From positions 1-47,067 of IMG/VR virus record IMGVR_UViG_3300020056_000045: a stretch of DNA of 47,067 nucleotides; one strand, given 5' to 3'. The position numbers and the translations under genes are program-made. Below the pieces are notes generated by a model. The model was not told where the DNA came from. It saw nothing but the letters and a program-made list of their open reading frames with translations, and made no database searches. This DNA comes from a virus. Below are positions 922 through 33,106 of this stretch, piece after piece (position 1 is the stretch's first letter; the number at the start of each line of letters is the position of its first letter).

Positions 922-2255
922 TGGAAGCTGGAATTGGTATTGCAAATCCTTTATTTTTTATAGGCGTGGTTGAAAATTGTATCGATCCTCGTAATGAAGG
1001 ACGTGTTCAAGTTCGAGCATTTAGTGTGCACGGAACTCTAGAAGAAATTCCAACAGAGCATCTACCTTGGGCTATTTGTATGAAAGGTGATTATACACCA
1101 AATGGCCAAATGATACCGGAGCTAAATGATTTTGTTTTTGGTGTTTTCTTAGATGGAAGGGATGCTCAAACTCCTATGATAATGGGATTAATTCCTACTC
1201 AATTTGCTGAAGCACCAAACCCTGAGAAAAACGGGTGGGGCACGAAAGTTGGCACTCACCATTCTAGCGAAGATAGACTTGCTAATGGCTCAAAACCACA
1301 AAATTTTGGCCAACCTCAACAAGACAGACTTGTCCGCGGTGAAAATATTGAAGAAACTTATGTTATGGAACAATCAGTGGCTGCGATAGATGTTGAAAAG
1401 GTTGCTGAGGGTGCTGTTGCTTGGAAAGAACCACAGCCAGCGTACGCTGCTCAATATCCATTTAATAAAGTTTGGAAAACGTCAGAGCACGTTATTGAAT
1501 TAGACGACACTAAAAACAACGAGCGTATTATGATTTGGCATAAAGCTGGGTCCTATATACAAATTGACTCTAATGGTAGTATGACCACCAGATCTACTGG
1601 AGATAAGTTTGATGTTAATAAAACCGGTCAACATGTTTATATCGGCGGACAATCTAATGTGACCATTATGGGTCACACATATATGTATCACGACGGAAAT
1701 GTTACACAAGAGATTAACGGTGATTATAAACAAATTATTCACGGTAACCATTATGTCGGTGTTGGAGGGCAAGGTAACTTCAATATTAGCGACTCTCTGC
1801 AAATAAAATCAAACGATATGATGTTAGATGCTCATAATGGTACGATGGGTATATACGCAAAGGATACTCTTAATATTCAGTCTAAATTAGATATGAATTT
1901 AAAAGCAAATAAAACATGGATTGATGCGGCTGCCGATCTTAACGTTTGGGCCGATAATCTTTATATGACTGGCGAAAGCGATGCCAACCTTTATGGTGCA
2001 GCAAATGTTCAAATTGGAGGAGGAGCAGAGGGCCAAGTTAGTATTTCTGCTGCTACAGTTGCAATAGACGATGTAGTCACTATGGCAAACGGCGAGGCAG
2101 ACTCTGCTACAGGCGGAGAGCAAGGCGTGGGTGCCGCTAGAACAGAATTACCTGAGCCTCCAGCTAAATCGACGGCAACGACCGCAGATAAAAGAACAAC
2201 GGAGCCGGTTACTTCAGCTGGTATTACAAGCGTTGATGAAGGAGTAATTGTCTAA
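921..2255 (+). CDS. 5: Baseplate central spike protein, gp5-like, without lysozyme domain
   Basis: This is a 444-residue spike protein. I start it at ATG 921, which overlaps the previous stop and follows a GGAG ribosome site at 908-911, rather than at the in-frame TTG at 906. Residues about 12-95 look like the gp5 N-terminal OB-fold (FIGVVENC, NEGRVQVR, DFVFGVFLDG, PMIMGLIP). Residues about 240-390 are rich in short alternating beta strands (HVYIGGQSNVTIMGHTYMYH and later units), fitting the C-terminal triple-stranded beta-helix that punctures the outer membrane. T4 gp5 carries a lysozyme domain between these parts. Here the middle segment (about 100-240) is short and shows no lysozyme-like E/D/T pattern. 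The C-terminal 50 residues are low-complexity, rich in A, T and E. The downstream gene carries a peptidase that may supply the wall-degrading step. Confidence 0.85.
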   Translation: MEAGIGIANPLFFIGVVENCIDPRNEGRVQVRAFSVHGTLEEIPTEHLPWAICMKGDYTPNGQMIPELNDFVFGVFLDGRDAQTPMIMGLIPTQFAEAPNPEKNGWGTKVGTHHSSEDRLANGSKPQNFGQPQQDRLVRGENIEETYVMEQSVAAIDVEKVAEGAVAWKEPQPAYAAQYPFNKVWKTSEHVIELDDTKNNERIMIWHKAGSYIQIDSNGSMTTRSTGDKFDVNKTGQHVYIGGQSNVTIMGHTYMYHDGNVTQEINGDYKQIIHGNHYVGVGGQGNFNISDSLQIKSNDMMLDAHNGTMGIYAKDTLNIQSKLDMNLKANKTWIDAAADLNVWADNLYMTGESDANLYGAANVQIGGGAEGQVSISAATVAIDDVVTMANGEADSATGGEQGVGAARTELPEPPAKSTATTADKRTTEPVTSAGITSVDEGVIV

Positions 2256-4033
2256 TGTCAAAATGTCCTGATCTTGATTTTAATACAAATTTTAGAACTA
2301 CAAACACTGTATCCTTATTTAATACTGGAGCTACGGGATCTTATACGAATGCGAATGGTACTTGGTCTTTAGATCAAGTAGCTGTTATTGAAAATCAGTT
2401 TTTAAATAATATAGTAACTAAACTTGATAGTAATGAGCTTATTGATGCGGTTGCTGAGTTCGGTGACAAAGAATTTTATGGATCGGTAAATAATTTAAAT
2501 AATGCATTTAGTACTAATATTAATATAAAAGAATCAGTAACTAATTCAGATGGAACAGCTAGAGAAGGTTACGAGGTAGTTTTTGGTATTATTGAAAAAG
2601 GAAGAAAAATAACACCTTTTGAAATGGCTTTGTTTATGAAAGATTATTATTATGATCCTACTAGCGTTAATAATGCAATAAATGGGAATAATACAGACAG
2701 CTTTTTATCAAGCTTAAATGACTTTTATAACGGAAGCTTTTTAAATAGTATTATGGGCGGTTTCTGTAGTGCGTTGCCAAACATATTTGGTGTTTTTGCT
2801 TTATTTGATGAGATACAAAAAGTTGCTGGTAAAGCATTAGCTATTCTATCTAAAATTAAAAACTTTGAAAATCCTTTAAAAGCTTTTTTTGATGCTTTAA
2901 AAGTTGAAGCCTTAATTACTAAAATTAAAGATCAGATTACTAAGGTTATTGATAAAACAATTAATAAAGTTAAAAAAATGGTTGAAAACTTTAGCTTAGA
3001 TAAAATGTTTAAGCAAGCAGAAGTTTTTATTAATCAGACGATTGCTCAAAATGTAATGAAAATTAAAGAAGAAGTTATGAATTTCTTCGATGGCGATTTT
3101 ATTAATAATGTAAAAGAAAAAGCTAAAAACTTAATAGATTATGCTTGTAATTTATTAAAAAATCCAACGTTAGAGCAAATTCTATTTTTAATGGCTAGAT
3201 TTTGTGGTTTAGCCAATAATATTGCTCAAGTATTTGAAGACGCTAAAAAACCATTAGATCAATTTGTACAAAAATATAAAAGAAATTATGGCATCGTCAA
3301 AAGCTCTTCAGCCGTGAACACAGGTGCGGCCATTGAAAATGGTGCGAGAAGATACAGTGATGAAAAACGCACAGAAGAGATAAATAGAATGAACGAGGAC
3401 CTTTATAAGCAACCAATTACTGATGATACTATTGTACCAAATACAGACCCACCGGTAACATATGGCGATCTCAAAACGGGTAGAATAGACCCCGTTTATC
3501 TTGCCGACGATGCTGCATATGGAGTTAAAAAATATGGTGAAAGATTAAAATTAGAATACCCGCCTACACCTGAGGAACTTGCGGCGATACCTAATTTTGA
3601 TGATTTAATTGATGGCAAAGATCCTAGATTTGTATTAACTAAGGGTGGTGCTTATCGGTACTATAAAGAAAAACCAGGCGGTGCTTCTCAAATGTGGTGG
3701 AAATGTGGACAATTAGAACGAGTAATGTTAATGAGGTTACAGAAACAGTTTGGAAAACGAATAACGATTTTGAGTGCCTTCAGGGGTGATGGTTATAATG
3801 AACATATTCGCAAAAATGGCAGCGGCGCTGTTGACAAAAGTGCACATACAAACGGAAGAGCTTTTGACTGCACTTGGAGTGGATTTAACGCAACGTCAAT
3901 TAAGAACTTTAAAGCAATTGCTGTAGCTGTTGGATTTAATGGAATAGGAACCTACATAGGGGATGGCTTCATTCATGTTGATACTAGAACAAAAATTGTT
4001 AACCCAGATGGACTTATGTTTTGGGACGGATAA
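2255..4033 (+). CDS. Baseplate-associated protein with C-terminal M15-type peptidase domain
   Basis: This 592-residue protein starts at ATG 2255, overlapping the spike stop by one base. Three parts are visible. The N-terminal region (1-185) is unrecognised. Residues about 187-345 form a lysine-rich, helical, coiled-coil-like segment. After a proline-rich linker, residues about 480-592 match the Peptidase_M15 (VanY / D-Ala-D-Ala or L-Ala-D-Glu peptidase) fold. The key signature is S529-A-H531-T-N-G534-R-A-F-D538 (SxHxxGxAxD zinc site). It is preceded by SAFR at 507-510 and followed by GIGTY and FIH574-V-D576. H531, D538 and H574 are the expected zinc ligands. The position between spike and gp25 genes, with no signal peptide or holin nearby, points to a virion-borne peptidoglycan peptidase acting during tail penetration. 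Substrate and bond are inferred from the family only. Confidence 0.8.
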   Translation: MSKCPDLDFNTNFRTTNTVSLFNTGATGSYTNANGTWSLDQVAVIENQFLNNIVTKLDSNELIDAVAEFGDKEFYGSVNNLNNAFSTNINIKESVTNSDGTAREGYEVVFGIIEKGRKITPFEMALFMKDYYYDPTSVNNAINGNNTDSFLSSLNDFYNGSFLNSIMGGFCSALPNIFGVFALFDEIQKVAGKALAILSKIKNFENPLKAFFDALKVEALITKIKDQITKVIDKTINKVKKMVENFSLDKMFKQAEVFINQTIAQNVMKIKEEVMNFFDGDFINNVKEKAKNLIDYACNLLKNPTLEQILFLMARFCGLANNIAQVFEDAKKPLDQFVQKYKRNYGIVKSSSAVNTGAAIENGARRYSDEKRTEEINRMNEDLYKQPITDDTIVPNTDPPVTYGDLKTGRIDPVYLADDAAYGVKKYGERLKLEYPPTPEELAAIPNFDDLIDGKDPRFVLTKGGAYRYYKEKPGGASQMWWKCGQLERVMLMRLQKQFGKRITILSAFRGDGYNEHIRKNGSGAVDKSAHTNGRAFDCTWSGFNATSIKNFKAIAVAVGFNGIGTYIGDGFIHVDTRTKIVNPDGLMFWDG

Positions 4034-4451: not shown

Positions 4452-6245
4452 ATGGCTAAATTAAATCTTGCTGAATTAGACTTTCAGTCAATTAAAGAGC
4501 AGTTTAAAATCTTTCTGCAAGATCAAACGCAGTTTAAAGATTACAACTTTGACGGCTCAAATATGAGCGTCCTTTTAGACGTCTTAGCATATAACACTTA
4601 TCAAAATAACTTTTATACTAATATGGCAATCAATGAGATGTTTATCGACTCGGCCGTATTAAGAAACTCCGTTGTCTCGCATGCAAAAGAATTAAATTAC
4701 TTACCAAGATCTCGCAAATCAGCAAGAGCTACAGTAACGGTTAAAATTTTAGATGATACTATAACTGGTACAACTGTCGTAATTCCTCAATACCAAAGTT
4801 TTAGTGCTACATATCTTGGAAATAATTACGAATTTATAACCGATAGAGTACACATTGCAAAGGCTTCGTCACCAGGAGTTTATGAAAGTGAAGAAATTAC
4901 GCTGTACGAAGGATCTATTCTTACAAGCTTTGAGCGTGAAGGTTTCTTTATTGACGATGACGGTGTTTTAAGAGTTAATCTATCTAACGAAAATTGTGAT
5001 ACCGACTCTATTGAAGTATTTGTTGATGCCGAAGCAACCGAAGATACAAACATTTTTGTAAGAAAAAATGATGTATTTGGCGTTGGAGCATTGGATAAAG
5101 TATTTTATGTTGAACCATATTTTGATGGACGTTATTCTGTTTATTTTGGCAGAAACGTATTTGGATATCAACCAACAGAACTAGAAGATGTTCGCGTAAA
5201 ATATAGAGTTACATCGGGCGCCGAAGCAAATGGTATTCAATCATTTACAGCCCAGATTACAGAAAATGGAGCCACAGTTGTTACTACAGTAACTAAAGCC
5301 CAGGGTGGGTCAGACCAGGAATCGACTGAAAGTATTCGCTTTACAGCTCCTAGAGCTTTGCAAATTCAAGAACGCGCTGTTACTCAATCGGACTATGAGC
5401 AATTGTTAAAAAATCAATTCCCAGAGATCGTGGCTGTTGCTGCATATGGTGGAGAAAAATTAGAACCTCCGCAATATGGTAAAGTTGCAATCTCAGTTTA
5501 TCTGGGTCAAGGTAACGATCTATTATCAAAATCTGCTGCAGCACAATATATCGATTACTTAGCTGATAGAACTCCGCTGGCTGTTGAGCCTATTTTTATC
5601 GATGCTCAGTATTATTATGCTGATATTACAGTAAATGCATATTACAGTAAGTCAGTTACTACAAAATCTGCTGGTCAATTAGAATCTTTAGTCAGAACCA
5701 CGATTACAAACTATTCAGACACGAACTTAGATGACTTTAATAAAACACTTAGATTATCAAAGCTTTCAACCTTAATAGATAATTCTGATATTGCTTTCCA
5801 ATCAAATGCTATTGTTGCAAAACCAATAATTGATTATACTCCTGAATTAAATGTTTCGTTAAACCCGGAATTTAATTTTAATACAGCTTTAGTCAAACCA
5901 TATGCATATAATACTACAAATAAATTTACTGATTATAAGCCTGCAATTAAATCTGGCGAATATGATTTAGATGGTGTTTGTGTATTTTTCCAGGACGATG
6001 GTAATGGCAAAATTCAAATTGTTGCTGCCGACTCTGTTAATCCCGAAGTTATTGAGCCAAATTTAGGCACAGTTGACTATACAACAGGCCAAGTTAAATT
6101 AACAGGATTTAAAACAGAATCATTTAATGGCTCAGCAATTAAAGTTGTAGCTAATACAAAAACAGACGATATTAAAGCACCTAATGGAAGAGTTTTTGCT
6201 ATAAGAGATGCAGATGTAACTGTTAAAATTATAGAGACAAAATAA
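4452..6245 (+). CDS. 6: Baseplate wedge subunit gp6
   Basis: This 597-residue protein (T4 gp6: 660) follows gp25 by one base, with a GAGAGGA ribosome site just upstream. The N-terminal 90 residues have the typical gp6 pattern: a short helix-rich lead (IKEQFKIFLQ), then DYNFDGSNMSVLLDVLAYNT, a NFYTNMAINEMFIDSA stretch and LNYLPRS. Residues about 215-400 resemble the baseplate-J fold, including ESIRFTAPRA and an ERAVTQSDYEQLL segment typical of J-like proteins. Gp6 dimers link wedges into the continuous inner ring of the baseplate and hold it through the hexagon-to-star change. Its stop overlaps the next ATG by one base, so the two genes are probably translationally coupled. Confidence 0.93.
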   Translation: MAKLNLAELDFQSIKEQFKIFLQDQTQFKDYNFDGSNMSVLLDVLAYNTYQNNFYTNMAINEMFIDSAVLRNSVVSHAKELNYLPRSRKSARATVTVKILDDTITGTTVVIPQYQSFSATYLGNNYEFITDRVHIAKASSPGVYESEEITLYEGSILTSFEREGFFIDDDGVLRVNLSNENCDTDSIEVFVDAEATEDTNIFVRKNDVFGVGALDKVFYVEPYFDGRYSVYFGRNVFGYQPTELEDVRVKYRVTSGAEANGIQSFTAQITENGATVVTTVTKAQGGSDQESTESIRFTAPRALQIQERAVTQSDYEQLLKNQFPEIVAVAAYGGEKLEPPQYGKVAISVYLGQGNDLLSKSAAAQYIDYLADRTPLAVEPIFIDAQYYYADITVNAYYSKSVTTKSAGQLESLVRTTITNYSDTNLDDFNKTLRLSKLSTLIDNSDIAFQSNAIVAKPIIDYTPELNVSLNPEFNFNTALVKPYAYNTTNKFTDYKPAIKSGEYDLDGVCVFFQDDGNGKIQIVAADSVNPEVIEPNLGTVDYTTGQVKLTGFKTESFNGSAIKVVANTKTDDIKAPNGRVFAIRDADVTVKIIETK

Positions 6246-8551
6246 TGGAAATAGAAAAAAGTATTTTATTTAAAGTCGAGCAGCAGTTTCCTGCAATATA
6301 TCGAGAGTCGGGAACCGAACTCGTTCAGCTGATTAAAGACTATTATGAGTTTTTGGAAACAGAAACTAATATGAGTCACTATAGATCAAGAAGACTTTTT
6401 GAATATAGAGATATTGCTAGAACAACTTCTGAGTTTATTATCCAATTCCATAAAATGTTTATGCCGGATATGGATTTGTTGGAACCTGATGTAGCGCGAC
6501 TTGCTGTTAGGAGTATTTTAGATCTTTATAGGCGTAAAGGTACTCCCGGCGCTATTAAAGTATTTTTTAGGCTTTTCTATCGCGAAGATGCGCAAATAAA
6601 ATATCCTGGACAGTTTATGGCCAAGCCTTCAGACTCTTCTTGGAGAAAAGGCGTTTATTTAGAAATGTATCCAAATAATAATGTTTTCTATGATAAAGAT
6701 GGAAACAAATATGATTATGGTGACTTATATGGAAAAAATATTAAGGGCGCTGCTTCTGGCGCACGAGCTGCTGTTGACACCGTAAGCTTTATCAATGTTA
6801 ATAAAACTCTTATACCTGTTCTTTATTTAAGTGACGTTAAAGGTACCTTTGAAAAATATGACGATATTGTTAGTGTTATCAATGGTAATTCAGTTTCATT
6901 TGGTAGGTTATCTGGCTCTTTAAGTAATATTAATATTACAACCGATCCTAACATTTTTAGTGGTACTACTAATCATGAAGTTGGGGAAATATTTGATGTA
7001 GAAAGTCAGACAGGATCGGGTGGCCGCGCTATTGTTACTGAAGTATTTACTACAGCAACCGGTCTTGTTTCTTATAAAATTGCAGACGGCGGCTTTGGAT
7101 ACACTGTAGCTAATACAGAACTTTTAGTTTCAGATCAGGTTATTATTATTGATAATCCTAATAAATCGTTTATTTTAGAAGAAAGATTAACAGACGATCT
7201 TGGAGCAAGTGGTCGAGTAATTGGCCAGAGCGAAGTTGCTGTTGGCGTTAAAATGAATCCGGGTGAAGCATTTAATGCTAATTCTATAGTTTTTGCTACT
7301 GACCGCGCCGGCAATCCACAAATTGATTCTTTCTTACAGGCAAACATTGCTCTTATTACTGATAAAAATGGCTCTTCTCCAGGGCCTCTTTTTCCTTTAA
7401 CTGGTAACTCTGAAGATGTTAAAGTTAATATTACCAACCAAGAAACAGTAAGTCTTATTACTGACAAAATTGCAGATTATACTTCTGTTCTTATTAATTC
7501 ATCAAATTATAATGATGTTCCTCCAGCAGTTAGACCAATGTCAGGCACGGCTGATCCAGTTACACTGGCTACTCCACTAGACGAAGCATTTGATTTACAA
7601 GATTTCCAAATTGGCACAATTAGTGAACTCGTTAATGTTAACCCAGGTGCAGATTATACTAATGATGTATGGGCAATAGCTGTTGACGAAATAATGAGAT
7701 ATTTTGATAGATATGAACAAGTTATCACGGTTGACAACTTTGCTGCTGGTTTCACAGTTGGAGAAGAAATAGAGGGAACATCCACGGGACGAAGAGGCGT
7801 TATTACAGGAATTAATGCTTCTGATCCTAAGTATATAAAGGTCAGACCTTTTAGTTATTATGGATTTACAAAAGACGATGATATTATTTTCAATGGCGTT
7901 AGATATAATGTCGTAACTGTTGCTAGAGACTATAACAGTGAAAAATTGGGTGAAAGTGCAGATATTGAAGCAACTGTTGATTACGAATCTGGAAAAATTA
8001 AAGAAGTTGAAATATACAGATCTGGACTTGGATATCCAGAAGGTGATGTAGTTTATTTGGTAGATGAAGACGGAACTAAGCACGCAAGAGGCATAGCAAA
8101 CTCATATACACAAGGTATCACAGAGGGATATTGGGCTACATTCAATTCCCATCTAAACGGATTTTCTGACAGCAACGATGATGGATATATTGACGCCACA
8201 ACAGAATATAAAGATTATGGCATGAAAATTCAAGATAGTGATTATTATCAAGAATATTCTTATGTTATTAAAACGTTGGTTGGCGAAGAAAGATTTAGAG
8301 AACCAGTTGAAAGACATCTGCATTTGGCAGGTACAAAAATGTTTGGTGATTTCTTGTATCAAAGAGATGTACCAATTGGCATTGGCGCAAGAAACATTCT
8401 TGGTATCAAAGAAGACGAAGAAGTCGGCGGAGATTACATCGTTGGACCAGATCAATACGTTGCATATGCGGGCGGCGGCTTAAGGGCGGATACTACAACA
8501 TATAGAGTTGATGATACAGATATAAGAGCTGACGCGACAGCAGAACCATAG
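6245..8551 (+). CDS. Baseplate wedge protein, probable gp7 equivalent
   Basis: This 768-residue structural protein starts one base inside the gp6 stop. The N-terminal 140 residues are compact and mostly helical (VEQQFPAIYRESG, IKDYYEFLE, LDLYRRKGTPGAIKVFFRLF), a conserved start I associate with marine T4-like virion proteins found next to gp6. The rest is beta-rich with recurring G-x-G-Y turns (DGGFGYTV, NPGADYTND, RSGLGYPEG) that look like repeated small beta modules. T4 has the order 6-7-8, and this gene sits between recognisable gp6 and gp8 genes, so gp7 (1032 residues in T4) is the best positional guess. Sequence similarity to T4 gp7 itself is not obvious to me, so no symbol is given. The alternative is a lineage-specific wedge protein. 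Confidence 0.6.
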   Translation: MEIEKSILFKVEQQFPAIYRESGTELVQLIKDYYEFLETETNMSHYRSRRLFEYRDIARTTSEFIIQFHKMFMPDMDLLEPDVARLAVRSILDLYRRKGTPGAIKVFFRLFYREDAQIKYPGQFMAKPSDSSWRKGVYLEMYPNNNVFYDKDGNKYDYGDLYGKNIKGAASGARAAVDTVSFINVNKTLIPVLYLSDVKGTFEKYDDIVSVINGNSVSFGRLSGSLSNINITTDPNIFSGTTNHEVGEIFDVESQTGSGGRAIVTEVFTTATGLVSYKIADGGFGYTVANTELLVSDQVIIIDNPNKSFILEERLTDDLGASGRVIGQSEVAVGVKMNPGEAFNANSIVFATDRAGNPQIDSFLQANIALITDKNGSSPGPLFPLTGNSEDVKVNITNQETVSLITDKIADYTSVLINSSNYNDVPPAVRPMSGTADPVTLATPLDEAFDLQDFQIGTISELVNVNPGADYTNDVWAIAVDEIMRYFDRYEQVITVDNFAAGFTVGEEIEGTSTGRRGVITGINASDPKYIKVRPFSYYGFTKDDDIIFNGVRYNVVTVARDYNSEKLGESADIEATVDYESGKIKEVEIYRSGLGYPEGDVVYLVDEDGTKHARGIANSYTQGITEGYWATFNSHLNGFSDSNDDGYIDATTEYKDYGMKIQDSDYYQEYSYVIKTLVGEERFREPVERHLHLAGTKMFGDFLYQRDVPIGIGARNILGIKEDEEVGGDYIVGPDQYVAYAGGGLRADTTTYRVDDTDIRADATAEP

Positions 8552-8587: not shown

Positions 8588-9310
8588 ATGGCAAAACAAA
8601 TAATTGATGTAGGCACTACAGCAGATGACGGTACAGGCGATAGACTCCGTGATGCCTTCATCAAAGTTAATGAAAACTTTACCGAGTTATATACCTTCGA
8701 CTCAAACATTAGTACGGGTATAGCATTAACAGATATTAGCGTAACCACCGGATCAGCAACAGGTGCTGGGGCATTAGCATATAATAACAGCACTGGTGTA
8801 TTTACTTTCCAACCTGCGGTTCTTCCGTCGGCATTAACAGACCTAGGAATTTCTGATGGTACTAACGGCCAGGTATTAACCACAAACGGAAGTGGCACCT
8901 TCACCTTTGAAGATGGCGGTGGCATTGGGTTAAGCTCAAGAACTACTGGCGCTAATACCTCTCCTTCTATAGCTGATGCAGCGTCTGCAGATATAAACAT
9001 TCCGGGATTTAAAGGCTATGTTTTAATGAAAATTCAAACGGACAAGGCTGCTTGGGTAAGAGTTTATACTGACGATGCTTCAAGAACAGCAGACGCTTCA
9101 AGAACAGAAACAACCGATCCTGCGGTTGACTCTGGTGTAATCGCTGAGGTTATTACCACAGGAGCTCAAACTGTATCAATGGCGCCGGCTACAATCGGTT
9201 ATAATAATGAAAGTTCTCCTACTACAACAATTCCAATAGCCGTGACAAATAAATCCGGTTCAACGGGAACCGTTACAGTAACATTAACGATCCTACAATT
9301 AGAGGCTTAA
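8588..9310 (+). CDS. Virion structural protein with GTTADDGTGD tag
   Basis: This 240-residue protein has a good ribosome site (GAGGGA, 8579-8584) before ATG 8588. Residues 1-35 carry DVGTTADDGTGDRLRDAF followed by K-V-N-E-N-F-T-E-L-Y, a well-known N-terminal tag of marine T4-like structural proteins, thought to be an attachment region. The C-terminal half (GYVLMKIQTDKAAWVRVYTD through TIPIAVTNKSGSTGTVTVTL) is a beta-sandwich-like domain that I recognise from the ends of other marine phage virion proteins. A 13-base direct repeat (GCTTCAAGAACAG) near 9077 and 9095 encodes the ASRTADASRTE stretch. There is no enzymatic motif. It lies between the wedge genes and the subtilase gene, two bases before the latter, so it may accompany that protease on the baseplate. 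Confidence 0.75.
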   Translation: MAKQIIDVGTTADDGTGDRLRDAFIKVNENFTELYTFDSNISTGIALTDISVTTGSATGAGALAYNNSTGVFTFQPAVLPSALTDLGISDGTNGQVLTTNGSGTFTFEDGGGIGLSSRTTGANTSPSIADAASADINIPGFKGYVLMKIQTDKAAWVRVYTDDASRTADASRTETTDPAVDSGVIAEVITTGAQTVSMAPATIGYNNESSPTTTIPIAVTNKSGSTGTVTVTLTILQLEA

Positions 9311-9311
9311 A

Positions 9312-10994
9312 ATGGCTAAAAAAGAATGGATCGTAACTCTTCATAGAAAAGAAGATTTGCAAGATTTCTATACTGATATGGAAACGCCTGGCGGAAGTTT
9401 GTATATTCCAGATCGTTCCGTAAGTGTTAGGCATAGAAGAAACATAAGTAGAAATACTCACTATATGTTAGATTTTGATGAAGCACTCATGATATTAGAT
9501 GATCCTAGAGTTGCCAGTGTAGAGTTAGCAGAAATTCTAGATTTATTTACTAAACCGTCCGGTTGGACCTCGTCTGGAGAAGTTTTTTCAAAAGACTTTT
9601 TTACTGATGTAGGTGATATAAACTGGGGACTATTAAGACATCAATTAGCTGCCAACATTAGTGGTTGGGGTGATGATGCTACTTCAAACGTGTCACAAGA
9701 TTTCAGTGTTACTACCGGTGGTAAAAATGTTGACGTTGTTATTGTAGACGGGCACATTGATCCTGCCCATCCAGAATTTGCAGTTAATTCTGATGGTACC
9801 GGTGGAACAAGAGTTGTTCAATATAATTGGTTGCAACATACAAACGAAGTAAGTGGCGGGGCTAATGGAACTTATGTCTATACTCCATACGTAGATCCTA
9901 GCTATCCTGACACCGATGGTAATGGTATAGCAGATAGAACTGAAGATAATAATCATGGATGCCATGTTGCAGGAACGGTAGCAGGTAATACTCAAGGATG
10001 GGCTAGAGAAGCAAACATTTATAACATAAGCCCATATTCAACTAATCAAAATAGTATTTCTTCATCTTTAATGTGGGACTATATTAGAGCTTGGCATAAT
10101 AGTAAACCAATTAATTCAGCAACCGGGAGAAGAAATCCAACTGTCACAAATAATAGTTATGGAACAACGATCACACTTAACAATGGCGATTTTGGCCCAG
10201 TTACAAGAGTAATTTATAGAGGCGTAGATTATAATCCGGGAAGAAGTCTTACATTAGCAGAATTACAAGCGCGCGGATTTTATGCAACTGATACATCCCC
10301 AACCGTACCTTATTGGTCTAGTGCAAGGGCAGCAGATATTCAAGATGCTATAGATGATGGTATTATAATTGTAGCTTCAGCAGGAAACGACTCTTTTAAA
10401 ACCGTTAGATCTACTAACCAAGATTATAACAACTTTTTTTATGCAACTTATCTCGGATTTGGTGCAACTTGGTATCTTAACAGGGGAAATCAGTCAGGAT
10501 CAGCCGTAGAAAACGTGATTAACGTTGGGGCAACGGATAACGGACAAGCAGAGTTTAAAGCAACTTTTTCTAATTGCGGAGATCTTGTTGACATATTTGC
10601 AGCAGGAGTCGCAATACAATCTAGTCTTCATACAAGTACTGGTGCCACTGCAGATCCTAGAAATGGGAGTTATTACTTAGGAAAATATCAAGGAACTAGT
10701 ATGTCTGGCCCACAAGTTTGCGGCGTATTAGCTTGTCTATTAGAACACTATCCAGGTACTACTCAAGCAGAAGCTCAAGCTTGGTTAACACAATATGCAA
10801 ACGTTAATGAAATGGGAGACAGCGGAACTGATGATCCTATGGACAGGACAAGTTTGCAAGGCGCGCCAAATTTATTTTTGCGCTGGTTTAACCAAAGATC
10901 AGACACTGGAACAGCATACCCAAGAACAGCTTTTAAAAATAGACCAACATCAGGACATGTTTATCCTCGTACTGCCATTCGTAGACGTGGATAA
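9312..10994 (+). CDS. Subtilisin-family serine protease (peptidase S8) in the baseplate operon
   Basis: This 560-residue protein shows all the main subtilase landmarks in order. The Asp site is VVIVD146GHID followed by HPEF. The His site is NNH215GCHVAGTVAG, the oxyanion Asn is ASAGN359DS, and the Ser site is GTS463MSGPQV. Residues 1-75 (WIVTLHRKED up to DDPRVASVEL) resemble an I9-type inhibitory propeptide, suggesting a zymogen that matures by self-cleavage. No signal peptide or membrane segment is seen, so it is not obviously secreted. The last 30 residues contain a doubled YPRTA motif and end basic (RRRG). It begins one base after the preceding stop and is followed by a late promoter and gp8. 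Possible roles are maturation of virion proteins or cleavage of host surface proteins. Activity is inferred from motifs only; GCH replaces the usual GTH at the His site. Confidence 0.88.
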   Translation: MAKKEWIVTLHRKEDLQDFYTDMETPGGSLYIPDRSVSVRHRRNISRNTHYMLDFDEALMILDDPRVASVELAEILDLFTKPSGWTSSGEVFSKDFFTDVGDINWGLLRHQLAANISGWGDDATSNVSQDFSVTTGGKNVDVVIVDGHIDPAHPEFAVNSDGTGGTRVVQYNWLQHTNEVSGGANGTYVYTPYVDPSYPDTDGNGIADRTEDNNHGCHVAGTVAGNTQGWAREANIYNISPYSTNQNSISSSLMWDYIRAWHNSKPINSATGRRNPTVTNNSYGTTITLNNGDFGPVTRVIYRGVDYNPGRSLTLAELQARGFYATDTSPTVPYWSSARAADIQDAIDDGIIIVASAGNDSFKTVRSTNQDYNNFFYATYLGFGATWYLNRGNQSGSAVENVINVGATDNGQAEFKATFSNCGDLVDIFAAGVAIQSSLHTSTGATADPRNGSYYLGKYQGTSMSGPQVCGVLACLLEHYPGTTQAEAQAWLTQYANVNEMGDSGTDDPMDRTSLQGAPNLFLRWFNQRSDTGTAYPRTAFKNRPTSGHVYPRTAIRRRG

Positions 10995-11035: not shown

Positions 11036-12751
11036 ATGGCAGAGATTTTGACATCGAAATATAAGCAGGATCTTCTTAGGAATTTCTTTCTTGAAACGCA
11101 GGAAAATGCTAATACAGCATTAACCAACGAATTTTATATGATGGTAGGAAACAATTTAGATTCTTTCGGAAATAAAATCACTTCTGTTAACGCGCAGGGT
11201 AGCGAAAGCAAATTTATGAATACCATTTTGTTTGGTAAAAAAGTTGCTCCAACTGACGTTAAAATTATGTTTAAATATAATCCTTGGCAAGAAGGAACGG
11301 TATTTGATGAATATGACGATCAAGTAAATCTATCAGACAAAAAATTTATTTGTGTTGTTGGCCCAAACTTAAATAAAACTGGCGACTATCGCGTATTTAA
11401 ATGTTTAAATAACAATGGCGGCGCGGCTGTTCAAACACACCCAGAATATGATATAACAAACGAAGATCAAATTTATTCTGTTCTTACTGACGGCTATGTT
11501 TGGAAATATATGTTTAGAATTACTGCGGCTCAATTTGAAGCCTATAATGCAGTAGGCTATATCCCTATTATGGGAGATTTTATATTAGATCCATTTGATA
11601 CTGCAAATAGTGCTGCTTTGCCAACCACTACTGGATCTCCAATTAATAAAATTGAATTATCTAATGGTCTTGAAAATTTTGGATATCCAGCAATTTATGA
11701 AGGATCTGTTTATGGTATTAATAAGGCTGATAACATTGTTACTGTCGAAACACCCGCTGATTATAGATTAAGCCAAATTCAAAATTATTATGCCGGTATG
11801 ACAATGTCAATTGTTTTATCAGGACCTCAGACAGTTTTATGGGAAATTTCTAAATATGTTTATGATACAGGGTCAGGCCGCGGATTATTTACTTTAAAAG
11901 GTCAGCCTGTTATAAACAGTCCAGGCGCAAGAGATACGGCTAACGTTGAATTAACACAAGAAGTTAGCATTACACCAACCGTTATAATCGAAGGTGACGG
12001 AACAGGCTGTGAAGCTGTTTCCATAGTTGAAGATGAAGTTATTACTGGAATTAAAATAAACAGTTCTGGCGATGGATATCATAATGCTACAGCTACTATT
12101 AAAGATCCATTATACGACTTTGATCCAGATGATCCACTAACTGTAGATGTTAGAGCAACTTTAAGACCAATACTTTCACCAAAAGGTGGACATGGCACAG
12201 ACCTTATTGCTGAATTAGAAGCAAAAAGAATTTTAATGTATGCATATATCAATGAAACAAACAACTCATTGATTGGAGCAACAAACACGTTTAATACAGT
12301 TGGGCTTATTAAAAACCCAACGTGGGCTAATACGTCACCAAATTATACATCCCCAGAAACATTCGATAATAGAATTGCAGTCACTACAGATTCATCATAC
12401 GATATCTTATCTGTCGATACTCTAGTCACTCAAGTAGACGCAAATAATGACGTTATTTTTTCTGGAAAAATTCACGAAGTTGATGAGACGTCAAATACAT
12501 TTTATATTTCAGAATATATTGGCCCGTATGTTAATAACCCAGATAGTACTAGCCAAACATCTTTAAATTTAAGTTATCCTTTATTAACTTTAGATGGTAC
12601 TGCAATTCAGATAAATACACCTATAGAAGATAATGTTGTAGAATCTCCATATGTGCAGCGCTCTGGCGTATTATACTTTATGGAAGATATCACACCTCTA
12701 ACAAGAACAGACCAATCACGTGAAGAATACAAACTGGTATTGGAATTTTAA
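11036..12751 (+). CDS. 8: Baseplate wedge subunit gp8
   Basis: This is a 571-residue protein; T4 gp8 has 334 residues and marine T4-like homologues are commonly longer. The N-terminal part is characteristic of gp8: KYKQDLLRNFF, then NEFYMMVGN, a FGKKVAPTDVKIMFKYNPW segment, FICVVGPNLNKTGDYRVFKC and DGYVWKYMFRIT. In T4, gp8 is a dimeric wedge protein bound to gp7, gp6 and gp10. An NSSGDGYHNA turn near residue 345 is similar to the G-x-G-Y turns in the probable gp7. The gene lies downstream of its own late promoter and eleven bases upstream of the next large baseplate gene. Confidence 0.9.
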   Translation: MAEILTSKYKQDLLRNFFLETQENANTALTNEFYMMVGNNLDSFGNKITSVNAQGSESKFMNTILFGKKVAPTDVKIMFKYNPWQEGTVFDEYDDQVNLSDKKFICVVGPNLNKTGDYRVFKCLNNNGGAAVQTHPEYDITNEDQIYSVLTDGYVWKYMFRITAAQFEAYNAVGYIPIMGDFILDPFDTANSAALPTTTGSPINKIELSNGLENFGYPAIYEGSVYGINKADNIVTVETPADYRLSQIQNYYAGMTMSIVLSGPQTVLWEISKYVYDTGSGRGLFTLKGQPVINSPGARDTANVELTQEVSITPTVIIEGDGTGCEAVSIVEDEVITGIKINSSGDGYHNATATIKDPLYDFDPDDPLTVDVRATLRPILSPKGGHGTDLIAELEAKRILMYAYINETNNSLIGATNTFNTVGLIKNPTWANTSPNYTSPETFDNRIAVTTDSSYDILSVDTLVTQVDANNDVIFSGKIHEVDETSNTFYISEYIGPYVNNPDSTSQTSLNLSYPLLTLDGTAIQINTPIEDNVVESPYVQRSGVLYFMEDITPLTRTDQSREEYKLVLEF

Positions 12752-19344: not shown

Positions 19345-20635
19345 CGGCGCAATTTCATTACTAGATATTGCTCAAGAGTTTGGTGGAGGCGTGCCCCACG
19401 CTTTAAACGAGTACTATAGAAACGGCGGATTAGTGCCGGATATTTCCCCTTATAACGACAACATTCCTACTTCAGGTACAATAGCATTTGATGATTTTTA
19501 TGGCGCATTAAATGCAGCACCTTTCATTGTTCGCATGATTGGTGCTGGCGGCGGCGGGGCTTCGGGCGTAAATGACGGCACTGGATCTCCACAAAGTTCA
19601 TACGCTGGAGGGTCTGGAACATCTAGTGTTATTGCCAGTATAAACATTGACAATGTTAGTGGGATTTATTATGATAATATTAATGGCGTATTTGGCAATT
19701 ATAGTCAGTTAAATAGTCCAGGGGGTACCGGGGGAACGCATAATGCTGGAACCAATGGCAATGCGGGGGCAGCTTCCGTGTACGGCCCAGGCGGCCCGGG
19801 CGGCAATGCTAACAATTCCGCTCCATCACCTTTTACCGGTACAAACTTTGCCGATGACTCTGTGGATAGTCCTAGAAGAGTTAATAATACATCATGGAAT
19901 TATATTAAAGTACCGGCTGGCTATTCGGGTGCAGAATTAGGTCATAGCGCATCTGACAGAATTGCAGTAGAATCAACAAACGGACTTGGCGTAGGTATTC
20001 ATAGATCAACAGCAAACGCTGAGTGGATCATTAGCGGTAGTGGTACGGTGTATTATGAAGTATATGTTGATTCTGAACGATATTGGGATTTTAGTAGATT
20101 CTATTTAAACGGAACCCGATATGTTAATATTTCAGGTTCAAATACAACTAGTTCGGGCAATCTAGCAGCAAGTGCTGGTACTGTTATCAAATGGCAATAC
20201 TATAAAGATGGGTCAGTTGATCGTTATTCAGATCTAGGAAGATGCTATTTTTATGTTACTAACCAAAGTACTTTAGATTATTCTTATGGCGCAGGCGGCG
20301 GCGGTGGCGGCGGAGATGCTTCTTCTAAAAATGATCCGTCCGGCACTGGCGGTAATGGCGGTAATGCCGGGACCAACCAGACAGGACCAGTAGGAACTGT
20401 TCCGTTGCTAACAAATGGTCAGCATTGGATATATTTTAAAAGAAGTAATCCAAGCCTTACCAGTCAATATAGACCATTTGTTGGATTCCAAGGAGCAGGA
20501 AATAACCAAGGTAACCAAAATGGTGCTGCAGGTGCTAATGGACGTATACAAATAGTAGATATGCAAAATTGGGAAGAATGGAATTGGCGTGGCGCCGGTG
20601 TAAATAACTATGTTTGGCAGGTTCCCGAAGGATAA
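19328..20635 (+). CDS. Glycine-rich tail protein, putative adhesin
   Basis: This 435-residue protein overlaps the S74 fibre gene by 17 bases in another frame. Residues 1-60 (SGAISLLDIAQEFGGG, ALNEYYRNGGLVPD, NIPTSGTIAFDDFYG) are an N-terminal module found on many phage tail proteins. The rest alternates beta segments with glycine blocks: GAGGGGASG, a GGTGGTHNAGTNGNAG stretch, GPGGPGGNANN, and GAGGGGGGGDASS with GTGGNGGNAGT. Glycine-rich blocks of this sort occur in polyglycine-sandwich adhesins such as gp38 of some T-even phages, so receptor binding is a reasonable guess. The fold is not shown by sequence alone. There is a C-terminal W-rich tail (NWEEWNWRGAG). Confidence 0.7.
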   Translation: MALQSSGAISLLDIAQEFGGGVPHALNEYYRNGGLVPDISPYNDNIPTSGTIAFDDFYGALNAAPFIVRMIGAGGGGASGVNDGTGSPQSSYAGGSGTSSVIASINIDNVSGIYYDNINGVFGNYSQLNSPGGTGGTHNAGTNGNAGAASVYGPGGPGGNANNSAPSPFTGTNFADDSVDSPRRVNNTSWNYIKVPAGYSGAELGHSASDRIAVESTNGLGVGIHRSTANAEWIISGSGTVYYEVYVDSERYWDFSRFYLNGTRYVNISGSNTTSSGNLAASAGTVIKWQYYKDGSVDRYSDLGRCYFYVTNQSTLDYSYGAGGGGGGGDASSKNDPSGTGGNGGNAGTNQTGPVGTVPLLTNGQHWIYFKRSNPSLTSQYRPFVGFQGAGNNQGNQNGAAGANGRIQIVDMQNWEEWNWRGAGVNNYVWQVPEG

Positions 20636-20643
20636 AATTTAAA

Positions 20644-21432
20644 ATGACTACAAAAACGTATCCTGGGTTTGGTTGGGTTTCTGATTATGTTGAAAACATA
20701 GTCGGCGCAAATACGTATGTAATAAGCGAAGATTTAAACAATAAAATTTCAACTGTTCTTATAAGAAGAAACGATCAGGGAGCTTTTGATTGGGGCTATA
20801 CAATGCCCGCAGTTTATGCAAATACAGTAATAGATTTTTTTAGTGACAATGGCGTAGTTTTAAACGACGAATTAATAAACTTTATAAATCAATGGCAAGC
20901 AATAAATGAAGTTTGTATAAATCCAAGATTTGGTATTGATGTTTCTAGAAGTTTAAACGGAGATAATACAATATGGATTGGCGGAGTTATTCCATATGCT
21001 GCTAATTGGTGGATTCAAGATTATGATTTAGGCGATTTAAATGTTGAAGAAGCGGTAAAAGGTGGAGTTAAATTAGGTTATAATTTAACAGAAGAAAGAT
21101 TTGTAACTCTAAAACTTTATTCTAGATTTAGACTCGCGTGGGGTGACGATTCTGCAGCAACGAATTATGTATACTCAATAGATGCAGACAACAATTGTAC
21201 CCTTATAACAACACAGGGGTGCAAACACTATCCGTCAACAACAGACGTGGTTAGTGTTACCCAAAGATGGGAAGATATTTTACCGAGTATAAACACATTG
21301 CAAGCTAAATACGAGGCTTATGATTGGTGCCGCGGCACGGCAATTAAATTTAACGAGCGAGTACAAACCGGAGAAGGTGCTCAAAATCAAGGTTACTTTT
21401 ATCTTTCGGTAATGAAAAACCGCGACGCATAG
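20644..21432 (+). CDS. Virion-region protein of unknown function
   Basis: This 262-residue protein is given from ATG 20644, which follows a GAAGGA site; an in-frame TTG at 20614 lies inside the preceding gene and is less likely. I do not recognise the family. It is soluble in appearance, rich in aromatic residues (DWGYTMPAVYANTVIDFF, YAANWWIQDYDLGDL), with two cysteines in the last third (NNCTLITTQGCKHY) and one more in WCRGTAIKF. There are no transmembrane segments, signal peptide or catalytic motif. It ends the gene run before a late promoter. Because it follows the glycine-rich protein by eight bases, it could be a partner, chaperone or second tip protein for it. Confidence 0.6.
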   Translation: MTTKTYPGFGWVSDYVENIVGANTYVISEDLNNKISTVLIRRNDQGAFDWGYTMPAVYANTVIDFFSDNGVVLNDELINFINQWQAINEVCINPRFGIDVSRSLNGDNTIWIGGVIPYAANWWIQDYDLGDLNVEEAVKGGVKLGYNLTEERFVTLKLYSRFRLAWGDDSAATNYVYSIDADNNCTLITTQGCKHYPSTTDVVSVTQRWEDILPSINTLQAKYEAYDWCRGTAIKFNERVQTGEGAQNQGYFYLSVMKNRDA

Positions 21433-21485: not shown

Positions 21486-24400
21486 ATGTCAAAGATTTCA
21501 GAATTAGGTCCTATATTAGGGATTAATACGCGATCTGAAGACCTATTCGTTATTGTAAACCTTATTCAAGGTGATGATGGTACAAAGAACATTACAAGAA
21601 AAGAACTCGTTGAAGCTATTCAATATGAAGTTTTCTCACACATTGAAATTACGGGTGGAACTATCCGAAATGTTCAAATGTTCACTTCCGAACTTAGCAA
21701 TGTTACCATTAACGACTCAGTTATTAATAGAAATACGATCAATGATTCAACGCTAAATAATTCTCAAATTTACGTTGCAAATGCTGAGGACGTCACTGGG
21801 CTTCGTTTTGACCTAAGCAATTCATCAATTCACTATTCAGATATAGATAATACAACATTTACAGATGGATCAATATTTGATTCAACAGCTAACAATGTTA
21901 CCATTACAAGTTCATATTTCCTAGATGGAAACATGGCTCGCAGCTCAGGTAATAATATGACATTTGTCGACTCAACAATCGACAACTCTATTATTACTGC
22001 ATCAGAATTTAATGATGGCACAGCTAATAACGTCGTAATTCGTAATTCTACATTTACCAATGGAGACATGTACAACTCCACCGGTAATAATATGGTATTT
22101 ACCAACTCAACTATTGACGATTCAACTTTCAATAATATGACTATTGAAGGTGCTGTAGCTAATAACTTTACAATTACCAATCTAAATCTTGACGAAGTTG
22201 TTATGACTGACGTCGAAATTAGCCGTGGTACAATCGACAGTGTTGATATTGCTAATGCTACATTTATCGGTGGCTTAACAGATGTTACTATTGCTAACGC
22301 ACAGATTACCGACTCTGATTTCTCAAATGGTACTGGTAATAATGTAACATTTACTAACTTGGTAGACTCGACAATTCTTAGATCTGATTTCTCAGATGGA
22401 ACTGGCTCAAATAACGTATTTACGGATACAACAATTGAAGCTGGCGTATTTAGAGATGGCGTTATTGCTAACACGACATTCCAAGGTGGATTAAACGATG
22501 TTACTATTGACGACGCAACAATCACAGACTCTAATCAAGCAAACAGCAACCTTACAGACTCGACATTTAGAGATGGTACAATTGAAGATACCATTATTAA
22601 AAATTCTAAATTTGACGGTGCAATTGAAAGAGTTGAAATTGCTAACAGTGTTATTATCGATTCACAACTTATTAATTTCGATGTAAGCCTAGATCCTAAA
22701 TTTGAGCCTATGATGGATGACGAATCTTATTTCGTCATAAGAAATGCTTTAACAGGTAAAACAGAACAGCTTACATACAAGCAACTTAACGACGAGCTTG
22801 GTAAAACAACCGAAAAAGCTCTTAAAGTTCACGTAGCAGTTGATGGCGATGATAATAATCCAGGTTCAATTTTAAAACCTGTACGTACTCTTGCTAGAGC
22901 TTCCGAACTTGCTATTGAAAAAGCCGGTGGTAATCCAAACCGTAATGATATTAACAACGCCATTCATATTTCAGTTGGACCAGGTACTTATTATGTAGAT
23001 GAACCAATTGTTCTTCCAGATGATTGTGCTCTTACATCAACAGCTGGTCAGTACGCAACAGTTATTCAAAAGAAACCAGGTTGGGAACGAACCAATGGTA
23101 TCCAGGTTGGATCCGGCTGTTATGTTCAAGGCTTTGGTTATATGAACTTTGAAGTCGATAACTTTGACAATCCTGAAGGTGGATTTGCAATCGTCTATCG
23201 TCCAGGCGCTCTATTACGTCGTTCTCCATATATTCGTGACTCCTCTCAGCTTTCAAACTTTAATCGTTTGGATGTTGAACCACCACTCAATCCGTTTAAC
23301 TCAAAAGGTACAATTGCAGACCTTGGCCAAGAATTCTATCTTGAAGCTGGCCACTCTCCAGAAAACCAGTTTGAAGTAGATGATGAAGTTACATTCTCAA
23401 GTGGTGCATCAGGATACATTTCTTGGACAACTGATATTAATTCAAATCGTCAGATTTATGTTCGTAACTTAAAAGGTAACGTAGAAGTTGGTGATACATT
23501 ATATGCACAAACAGGCGGTACGGGCGTGATTGAAAGAATTGGTATCGATGACTTCCCGAACAGATTAGTTGGTCGCGGTGGCGGTTGTGCTCTTATGGAT
23601 AGAGCCGTCCTAGATACAGACTCACTATATACCTACCTGCTCTGCTTTGGTTTCACACCTCGTACTCAAAACGGTACTGGATATGTTGCTAAAAACGGTG
23701 CTGGTGTTAACGGGATTGGTTCGTTGTCAATCTTTACTCGTCAGGCATTCTTTGCTCTTAATGGTGGACAGGTTACATTGAACAACTCAGGTTCTCAGTT
23801 TGGTGACATCTCAATGAGAGCTAAAGGCAAAACAACCATTGTAAAACCAGCAGTAGGTACTGAAAGCGTATTCATTGCTAACTCAGCATTTGGTGATTTG
23901 ATAGAAGAAAAATCTGATGATATCGTTAACGATATGATTGCTCACCTAACAGCCAATACTGCAAGTGGTGGCTTGGGTTATCAAGGTTATAATGCAGATA
24001 AATGCTTTAGAGATACCGGAATTATTGTGGATAATGTTGGCTACGACGTTGCAACAAACTCTAACTATTGGGGTCGTCTAAACGGTATTACATATCGTTC
24101 ACCAATCTCATATGTAGTTGTTAATGAGCAGTTAACAGAAACAGTTGGTTCAATCGAACACTTAAAAGACGAAATGATCGATGGCATTTTTGTTAATGCT
24201 AATACACAAATACAAGATCGCATCTCAACTTCATTAGATGAAACACTAAATGTTCTTCAAAATGGAGAGCCTCTTGCAAATCCAATTACTTTTGCTGACA
24301 CTGGCGTTGGAACTCGTACTGGTGCTCGTGAAGTAGTTCAAGACAATAGAGAATTTATTATTGAAGAATTTATGGATTGGATGGATAATAATCCAGACTT

Positions 24401-27400
24401 CTTTGCATATGATTCTGATAAATGTAAGAGAGATGTTCGCGAGTACATCTTGCCAGCAGTTAAATACGACACAATGCTGGATACAAACTATAACTCAATA
24501 ACAGCAGGGTATGCTTATTATTTCAATGCTACAAGAAACGTAGCCGGTGCTCAGCGTGACGAAACAGTAGCAGCATATCAAAGATTGCGTGATACTACTG
24601 ATGACTTAGTACAAGCAAACTCGGCAGCATTTGCTGCAGAAGCATATTATAAATTTAATAACGTTATTGATATTCTTAAACAATCAGGAACAAGATACGA
24701 TCCAACAGACGCTTCATATGACCCAGCAACTGGCGATTTCACAGTCACAATTGGAACTCACGGTCTTGAGGTTGGAAACTATATCCTGTTAATGCCTGAA
24801 GGATTTACATTCACTTGTGATACAGATGGTAATAAATTAGAATTTAAACATCCACGTAAATCTGACCCAGCATTTAAATCAGCAATGCCAATTACGGCAA
24901 AGACAGCCACGACAATTACAGTTAATGTTGGCTCAACCGGCTATACTGGAGTTCATACATTCGTCGATGCACTAGATGGTTCGGTCATAGAAATGGGCGA
25001 AACATATACATTTAGTGATGATGCTGGAATTACAGCAGCTAATAGAAATGCACGCAAACAACTACAGTCAAATAAAGGCTTTATCCAAGACTATATGATG
25101 GATTGGGCTGATGATGAGTGGTTCTTCTACGACAGCAAAAAATGTCAGCGTGACACAAATGCTTATATTGTACCAGCAGTATTAAGAGATATGCAATTAG
25201 GTACAAACTTTAACTCAGTTCAAAACGGTATTGCTTATCGTCAAGCCATTACATCAGTTGTTCCAGATTCACAACTGTCAGAAACAGTCGGTGCCTTCTC
25301 TCACCTAAGAGATGAAATTTCCGAAACTTTAACTGATAATATTGCAATTGCTAAAACTGAAGAAGCATTTAACGAAATTATTGGAATTATGCAAAAAGAT
25401 GGTAGGGAATATACTCCTACTAATGCAACATATAATCCAACTACCGGCGAGTCAGTAATTACAATTGAAAATCACGAATTTGAAATTGGTGACATGATTA
25501 CCCTTGCGAAGGAAGGTTTAACTTTCTATTGTGCAAATACTGCCACAGGCGCGAACACAAGTATTTCACATCCAAGAGCAACAGATCCAGCGTATCAGAG
25601 CCCATTACAAATCACAGCGGCCACAGATACTACTATTACGGTTTATGTTGGTGATGCAAATGGATATACTGGAGCCCATACATTCCAAAGAGCTAAACTA
25701 AATGCTGTTAAACAATATGCAAATGTTAAATCATCTCATACACCAACCACAGCAACTTATAACCCAACAACTGGTATCATGGTTGCAACAATTGGCGATC
25801 ACAATATTCAGCCGGGTGATACAATTGTTATGGATAAAGAAAGCATCACATTTAGCTGTGCGAACACAGATACTTTAGTCGTAACAAATATTTCGCATCC
25901 AAGAGTTACAGATCCAGCATTTAACTCACTAACACAAGTCACAAGTGTAACTGCTAATACAATTACAATTGACGTTGGTGCTGTTCCTAATGGTTATGCA
26001 GGAGCCCATACTTTTGTAAGCGCATCGTCAAATGCAATTAAAACTATTTCTTTCGCAAATGGTAGATTTACACCGTCAACAGCAACATATGATCCAATAA
26101 CTGGTATCTTCACTGCTACAATCGGCGAGCATAATTTGGTCGTTGGAGATAAAATTAAAATCGCAGATGAAAGTATTACATTCTCTTGCGGATCTCCAGC
26201 TGAGGAAATTTCACATCCAAGACCAACAGACCCAGCTTCAGGAGCAGAGTTAGTAATTTCAGCTGTAACTGACAATACAATTACAGTTAATGTTGGTAAT
26301 GCTGGAACATATACTGGTGCTCATACATTCGTAAGTGCACAGCCATTTGCCATCACATTAGCAACACCTTATAATGGAAAATATACTCCATCTAACGCTA
26401 CTTACGATCCACAAACTGGTGACATGACAGTTGATATTGGACAGCACAACCTAAGAGTTGGTAAATGGATTTCAATAGCAGATGAGAGCATTACATTCTC
26501 TTGCGCAAATGGAGCAATTAACTCAGAGCTTTCACATCCAAGAGTTAATGAACCAGCGTTTAGACAACCAGTTAGAATTACTGGCGTAACAGGCACAGCA
26601 ATTACATTTAATGTTGGTAATGCTGGCGGCTACGCAAATACTCACACATTCGTAAGTGCGGAAACAGATTGTATTGACACAAATGCAATTTATTGGACTG
26701 ACGCGGCTAAAATTGATTCGTTCCATACTCCATCCACAGCAACCTATAACCCAGCAACTGGTGTTATGGAATTAACTATGGGTGCAGATCATGGATTTAC
26801 AACAGATGACCATATCGAATTTAAGCCAAACTCAATCACATTTAGTTGTGCTAATACATCAACTGGTCAAACTATTGAAATATCACACCCAAGAATTGGC
26901 GAGCCTAACTACCAAAAACCGCTTGCAATTTCAGCAGTAACATCCACAACAATTACTGTAAATCCTGGTGCGGTACCAAATGGATATGCTGGTGCTCATA
27001 CATTCGTATCAGCTGAAGAAGGCTCAGTTATTAAAACCAGAACAACTCGTGATGGATTAAATGCAGCAGAGCAACTTAAAAATAACAAAGTATTCTTGCA
27101 GGATGAAGTAGATGCTTGGATCCGCGATAACTATTTTGTTTACAATGACGAAAAATGCTTCAGAGATACGGGCCTTATTCTTGACTCCGTACGTAGAGAC
27201 TTTGCAACAGACTCTAACGTCAACTCTGTATTCGCTGGCTTAGCATATCGCTCAGGTAATGCATCCACAAACACAGTAATTACTGAACAGCTAACAGAAA
27301 CTGTTGGCGCAATTGCTTGGCTAAGAGATGAAATTAGAGGAAACATCTTAAGTGGAACTGCTGAAAATAGAGCAAACACAGCATTTAATGAAATCATTGA

Positions 27401-32666: not shown

Positions 32667-33106
32667 TGGCATTTGCAAACAACGATTTCGACACAATAGA
32701 AACGTCCCAGGCACCCGACGCTAAACCGGTAGCCGTCAACCTTTCGGTATCAACGAATTGGCAAATTCTTATTGAAGTTCCAAAATATGAAGTTCCGGAG
32801 CTAATCTTTGGTGGTTCTACAACCGTGGAACCTGGAGTTGGCGAAGTTATTTCTCCACTCATCGTTTGTAACTATAGTGCTAATACAGTTAAAATTGATA
32901 TTAGAACACATAGATACGCAGAAAACGATGAGTACTGGGTAGTAAGAAATATGCCAATCCCATCTTACGATACTTTTGCTTTACCATTAAATGGCCAATT
33001 CTTTTCATCAGGCGATACTTTAGAAATTAAAGCAGATCAGAACTTGTGTGCAGACGCAACATTATCATTTACATTAGGCCAATCCGAGGAAGACGATGTC
33101 GAGTAG
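32666..33106 (+). CDS. Small virion structural protein
   Basis: This 146-residue protein starts one base inside the giant gene stop (TAATG). It is beta-rich and includes WQILIEVPKYEVPELIFGG, CNYSANTVKIDIRTH and YWVVRNMPIPSYDTFALPLN followed by SSGDTLEIKADQNLCADATL. This reads like a small beta-sandwich of the type used for virion decoration or as an adaptor between fibres. Similar sequences are familiar from marine T4-like structural regions, but I cannot name a function. It ends acidic (EEDDVE) and overlaps the next gene by eleven bases. Its place between two giant appendage genes fits a connector or assembly factor. Confidence 0.7.
   Translation: MAFANNDFDTIETSQAPDAKPVAVNLSVSTNWQILIEVPKYEVPELIFGGSTTVEPGVGEVISPLIVCNYSANTVKIDIRTHRYAENDEYWVVRNMPIPSYDTFALPLNGQFFSSGDTLEIKADQNLCADATLSFTLGQSEEDDVE

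Follow-up and report, generated by a model that had tools for sequence, protein, structure and literature searches.

The window analyzed here, a 47,067-nucleotide stretch of virus DNA (IMG/VR record IMGVR_UViG_3300020056_000045, positions 1 to 47,067), carries a gene for a subtilisin-like serine protease between two baseplate wedge genes. This subtilase gene is immediately preceded by a second gene, here called the adapter. The features of the locus are:

6245..8551, plus strand: gp7-like baseplate wedge gene, the upstream boundary (PHROG 17744; blastp match to phiM12 gp7)
8588..9310, plus strand: adapter gene, 240 aa, the constant subtilase partner (directly precedes the subtilase in 167/167 testable pairs)
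8588..8707, plus strand: adapter residues 1-40, T4 gp9/10-like virion-attachment segment (Pfam T4_gp9_10_N, 2.5e-06)
8930..9307, plus strand: adapter C-terminal domain (CTD), predicted all-beta, the proposed protease dock (AlphaFold2 block with pLDDT 88-98; profile present in all paired loci of the same CTD type)
9312..10994, plus strand: S8 subtilase gene, 560 aa, ATG start (PHROG 9158 family)
9312..9527, plus strand: subtilase residues 1-72, I9-propeptide-like domain (AlphaFold2 topology; local match to the BPN' propeptide)
9528..9611, plus strand: residues 73-100, the least conserved segment (conservation 0.43; pLDDT below 50 at 78-82)
9720..10802, plus strand: residues 137-497, S8 catalytic domain (Pfam Peptidase_S8; Foldseek to proteinase-K-like enzymes)
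9747..9749, plus strand: catalytic Asp146 codon (invariant, 126/126)
9954..9956, plus strand: catalytic His215 codon (invariant, 126/126)
10386..10388, plus strand: oxyanion-hole Asn359 codon (invariant, 126/126)
10698..10700, plus strand: catalytic Ser463 codon (invariant, 126/126)
10887..10991, plus strand: residues 526-560, a tail that is conserved although modelled with low confidence, in which the motif R-x-x-[STDN]-G-x-x-[YF]-P is repeated
11036..12751, plus strand: gp8-like baseplate wedge gene, the downstream boundary (PHROG 438; blastp match to phiM12 gp8)

A preliminary description of this DNA had placed the subtilase between gp7 and gp8, with one-base spacing from a virion gene. Both statements hold: the flanking products match gp7 and gp8 of Sinorhizobium phage phiM12 in blastp, and base 9311 alone separates the stop codon of the adapter, the ORF with the T4 gp9/10-like N-terminus, from the start codon of the subtilase. 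PhiM12 is collinear with the window through gp27, gp5, an M15 peptidase, gp25, gp6, gp7, gp8 and a vrlC-like gene. It has no adapter-subtilase module and a gp7-gp8 gap of 18 nt; since these two genes are adjacent there, the module occupies a junction closed in that phage. The nearest reference phages by gp6 are the Sinorhizobium phages phiN3, phiM19, phiM12 and phiM7, at about 40% identity. A 53% identical copy was found on a contig assigned to Rhodobacteraceae by binning; this contig may be mis-binned phage DNA. An alphaproteobacterial host is plausible.

Elsewhere in the window, ORF 2255-4033 has a C-terminal peptidase M15 domain, is collinear with the M15 peptidase beside gp5 in phiM12, and may be a separate cell-wall-cutting tail enzyme. 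Past the baseplate cluster lie very large ORFs at 21486-32666 (3726 aa), 33096-37619 (1507 aa) and 38050-42627 (1525 aa), which are probably fibre proteins. The tail-region ORFs 20614-21432 (272 aa) and 32666-33106 (146 aa) gave no PHROG match.

A scan keyed on gp8 returned 60 non-redundant gp8 loci, of which 7 were cut at a contig edge and 53 were informative. The subtilase stands directly before gp8 in 50 of the 53, and upstream of it the adapter and then gp7 are found in most loci that reach far enough, a few having one extra ORF in between. At the remaining three (L232, L248 and L267) gp7 directly precedes gp8 and the module is absent from the junction, which makes these relatives natural controls. 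Because the gp8 alignment was made mostly of subtilase-carrying loci plus phiM12, the figure of 50/53 holds for the lineage of the window and not for T4-like phages generally. Within that environmental T4-like lineage the module is, on the loci compared, nearly fixed. The spread of the pair among different sites favours gain of the module rather than loss. Homologues adjoining gp8, earlier suggested as something to look for in other marine myoviruses, are thus common, yet that scope was too narrow, the closest reference phages by gp6 being those of Sinorhizobium and homologues of the subtilase being common in cyanophages.

The protein itself is matched by Pfam Peptidase_S8 over residues 137-497 (E=1.6e-29) and from end to end by PHROG 9158, a function-unknown family (1.1e-109). 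Searches of PDB sequences led to aqualysin, proteinase K and subtilisins. In phmmer alignments to PDB subtilases, D146, H215 and S463 align with the motifs of the catalytic Asp, His and Ser, and N359 with the GN motif, confirming the canonical order of residues first read from the sequence. These four residues and S282 are identical in 126/126 aligned sequences, and the catalytic and oxyanion positions stay invariant even where identity to the window subtilase falls to about 25%. Residues following D146 are variable (DGH, DAH, DDP, DTG, DSG and others), and the loops between catalytic blocks differ in length. Identity at the catalytic positions in every aligned sequence is the pattern of an enzyme selected for catalysis; together with the Pfam E-value it rules out a chance S8-like motif. 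Judged by these alignments, the window subtilase is a genuine member of the S8 family with strongly constrained catalytic residues. A near-identity DNA search among phages with the window sequence gave no match.

The same alignment bears on the idea that the subtilase fold serves as a fibre-tip binding protein, for which cleavage would be unnecessary. Loops of variable length would suit such an adhesin, as would the other proteins that fill the position after the CTD in some phages (see below). However, the catalytic triad and the oxyanion Asn are retained across 126 sequences down to the lowest identities, and we regard a purely binding role as quite improbable.

The AlphaFold2 model of the subtilase, built on an alignment of 49 sequences, has a mean pLDDT of 87.3 and a pTM of 0.82, and its top matches in Foldseek, at a target-normalised TM of 0.76-0.84, are proteinase-K-like enzymes of family S8. 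Model and matches agree with the S8 fold for which structure prediction had been proposed as a check. Residues 541-560 fall below a pLDDT of 50, and the tail motif is present in 104/125 subtilases. The segment 526-560 is a possible docking tail. As a general docking signal the motif was unsupported, being missing from the alternative proteins that follow the CTD.

The preliminary description also likened the N-terminal segment to an I9 propeptide. This resemblance stands in predicted topology, AlphaFold2 secondary structure over residues 4-72 being beta-alpha-beta-beta-alpha-beta as in I9, and in a local alignment with the last part of the subtilisin BPN' propeptide, which scored 19.8 where none of 60 shuffles exceeded 14.0. 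It is weak in sequence: Pfam I9 had no match among 49 relatives, and no PDB propeptide matched the domain by sequence. In Pfam, a 2C_adapt match (19/49, best 0.0016) is weak and was taken as chance. For the modelled domain, 'I9-like' seems a fair label. Residues 73-100 would be a natural cut site because they are the least conserved and include the poorly modelled residues 78-82, which suggests a processing region. However, the mean conservation of the N-terminal domain (0.71) equals that of the pooled catalytic blocks and exceeds that of much of the remaining enzyme, which is unusually high for a disposable propeptide and counts against autoprocessing. Foldseek alignments spanning the propeptide and catalytic domain of pro-subtilisin E have an rmsd of about 20 Å, too large to fix the position of the N-terminal domain over the active site. 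For these two reasons zymogen status, which had been proposed for the protein, is treated as a hypothesis, and the N-terminal domain may serve some permanent function. The N-terminus, MAKKEWIVTLHRKEDL, was judged by inspection only and has no signal-peptide-like hydrophobic stretch, in line with the earlier reading.

Pairing of the subtilase with the adapter is constant. All 167 subtilases that stand first at a locus with upstream DNA are directly preceded by an adapter-like gene, making 121 non-redundant pairs with a modal gap of 1 nt; 163 of the 167 have the window-type CTD and 4 a second CTD type. Counts were drawn from reference phages and IMG/VR loci, which are redundant collections, and each scan took the best 80 of >500 matches, so they describe close and middle-distance relatives. 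Seven subtilases were unpaired, 3 at contig ends and 4 downstream of another subtilase. Subtilase homologues occur in hundreds of related phage sequences, and in the reciprocal search keyed on the CTD the subtilase was the next gene for 79/80 CTD genes (again the best 80 of >500 matches). On this genomic evidence the functional unit is a two-gene module of adapter and subtilase, and the upstream gene is more than a neighbour. Tandem second subtilases were seen in some viral contigs (L100:4700-5651, L105:6562-7477, L106:6562-7477 and L145:4302-5254).

Within the adapter, the CTD of about 125 aa is conserved and the N-terminus is swappable. The N-termini are very diverse and often of kinds known from virion attachment, with modules resembling gp9/10, collagen or Mtd_N; among 36 aligned adapters, a set chosen to be rich in the T4_gp9_10_N type, 29 have T4_gp9_10_N, 2 collagen and 1 Mtd_N. 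Likeness to T4 gp9/gp10-type baseplate proteins is limited to the first 40 residues. The CTD has no related entry among PDB sequences, and a fold search with the adapter model gave nothing convincing, the best match being a virus turret protein (8qpg_TD, E 5e-4, target TM 0.47). Some adapters match the subtilase profile; a protease domain was rejected in these cases, the match being due to a shared plastocyanin-like domain. That domain (GTYYYIC..H..M.G) also lies at the C-termini of the L010-L012 subtilases and is inserted in the subtilase of S-CAM1 (L181); further loci with it are L051:1807-3213, L067:4081-5991 and L072:4350-5993.

The CTD is not an exclusive subtilase partner. In S-BM3, S-SCSM1, ACG-2014i, Sf-CH1b, AG-345-P14 and L170 it ends a fibre protein whose next gene product has no subtilase match, and the CTD also occurs in PSS2, S-CBS2 and S-CRES1. 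S-CAM1, at first a candidate for this group, was rejected because its next gene is a subtilase overlooked by tblastn. That the same CTD terminates fibre proteins elsewhere, with other proteins next, supports a tail-mounted protease. Most simply, the CTD would act as a socket for a terminal protein, with the protease as its usual occupant. In the place of the subtilase, directly after CTD-bearing fibre genes, we observed a family of about 600-850 aa without a Pfam match and with the common ending KGLPI...PCPYYLPDDFV...ARTT (L182:4311-6137, L186:4319-6289, L187:4321-6651, L188:4317-6614, L170:3949-6258 and L013:1828-4383), possibly an alternative fibre-tip protein. S-BM3 has a further ORF of about 7.9 kb annotated 'peptidase S8' near its CTD-bearing fibre gene (L182:1-1349; record positions 135315-143261).

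The proteins annotated 'subtilisin-like serine protease' in cyanophages S-H38, S-CREM1, Sf-FR1 and S-WAM2 are homologous over nearly their full length, with 37-47% identity to the window subtilase. These PHROG 9158 proteins have the same catalytic residues and the same order of adapter then protease, although the window phage is itself nearest to Sinorhizobium phages by gp6. S-H38 and S-CREM1 carry the pair in a baseplate wedge cluster, like the window, whereas other cyanophages have it in fibre clusters. PSSM2_297 of P-SSM2 (T4-GC 292) shares these residues and this gene order but is a more distant homologue, and its partner has another type of C-terminal domain. An S8 peptidase cluster, T4-GC518, has been listed in P-HM1 and P-HM2 (Sullivan et al. 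2010, PMC3037559).

These distributions are relevant to whether the subtilase is a morphogenetic protease that processes proteins of the baseplate or fibres as the particle assembles, apart from a gp21-type prohead protease. Its location inside the baseplate gene cluster, the very large fibre-type genes nearby and its near-fixation in the window lineage are compatible with that role. However, collinear relatives without the module at this junction (phiM12, L232, L248 and L267) imply that this type of baseplate has no need of the protease, the pair has been relocated to fibre clusters elsewhere with different adapter N-termini, and a constant adapter would be superfluous if the enzyme served in assembly. 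A role in assembly therefore appears unlikely.

Attachment of the subtilase to the virion is supported indirectly, by the invariant pairing and by labels in one cyanophage record. Genetic linkage to a virion-attachment protein is seen in 167/167 pairs, with the gp9/10-like adapter N-terminus. The record of S-SCSM1 labels both gp144, the subtilase homologue, and gp145, its partner, as virion protein; for that phage 45 virion proteins are reported by mass spectrometry (PMC9602691). Because gp144 (1411 aa, about 32% identical to the window subtilase over the shared part) is diverged and gp145 carries the second CTD type, unlike the window adapter, S-SCSM1 gives support by homology only. An enzyme made in the infected cell to act on host proteins, outside the virion, would agree with the lack of an obvious signal peptide, and gene order by itself is no proof of virion incorporation; the constant pairing with a tail-adapter-like gene and the S-SCSM1 labels point the other way, and we consider intracellular action very improbable.

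Taken from sequence and predicted structure, the phage tail probably carries an intact subtilisin-type protease by way of a two-gene cassette. The account we favour, and think reasonably likely, is that the active protease is fixed through the adapter to the baseplate or to a short fibre, where it cleaves a protein of the host surface as the phage adsorbs. The gp9/10-like N-terminus of the adapter would plug into the baseplate, and the all-beta CTD, possibly with the conserved C-terminal tail of the subtilase, would hold the protease at the outer end. There the protease would cleave a host-surface protein, much as tailspike depolymerases act on glycans. The comparison with tailspikes is one of analogy and not membership: the likeness is an enzyme at the host-facing end of the tail, as we infer for the window phage, whereas tailspike depolymerases cut glycan and the window enzyme would cut protein, with adapter and enzyme encoded by separate genes.

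Proteinase K, aqualysin and subtilisin are made with signal peptides and act as free enzymes. The window subtilase shares their S8 catalytic fold and predicted structure, their catalytic residues and an I9-like N-terminal domain, but has no signal peptide that we could see. Its catalytic blocks are separated by additional segments, it ends in a conserved tail and has a tail-adapter partner, and its Asp motif is DGH where theirs is D-[ST]-G. In the open-licence literature we found neither a described phage tail subtilase nor a functional test or substrate of this protease, and no description of the two-gene module, its docking domain, its gp7/gp8 placement or its near-fixation. What was already known is the protease family as named in cyanophage annotations; what is new is the two-gene module as a probable tail-mounted enzyme.

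Glycans or peptidoglycan are the targets of those phage tail enzymes whose role in breaching the cell surface is best known. If the account given here is true, a baseplate-mounted protease would be a protein-cutting entry tool against abundant aquatic bacteria, and the module that encodes it is present in many cyanophages as well as nearly fixed in an environmental T4-like lineage. The question of which host surface protein requires cleavage is thereby made concrete, and the adapter CTD offers a sequence handle for fibre-tip proteins in unannotated phage genomes. More broadly, and with somewhat less than an even chance in our estimation, the module would belong to a widespread modular system in which the CTD is a general-purpose socket on the host-facing tip of fibres, filled by an active protease or by another tip protein, and T4-superfamily phages that infect aquatic bacteria would gain entry through proteolysis of a surface protein. 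Were this socket reading true, the module would be a protein-directed counterpart of the tailspike depolymerases.
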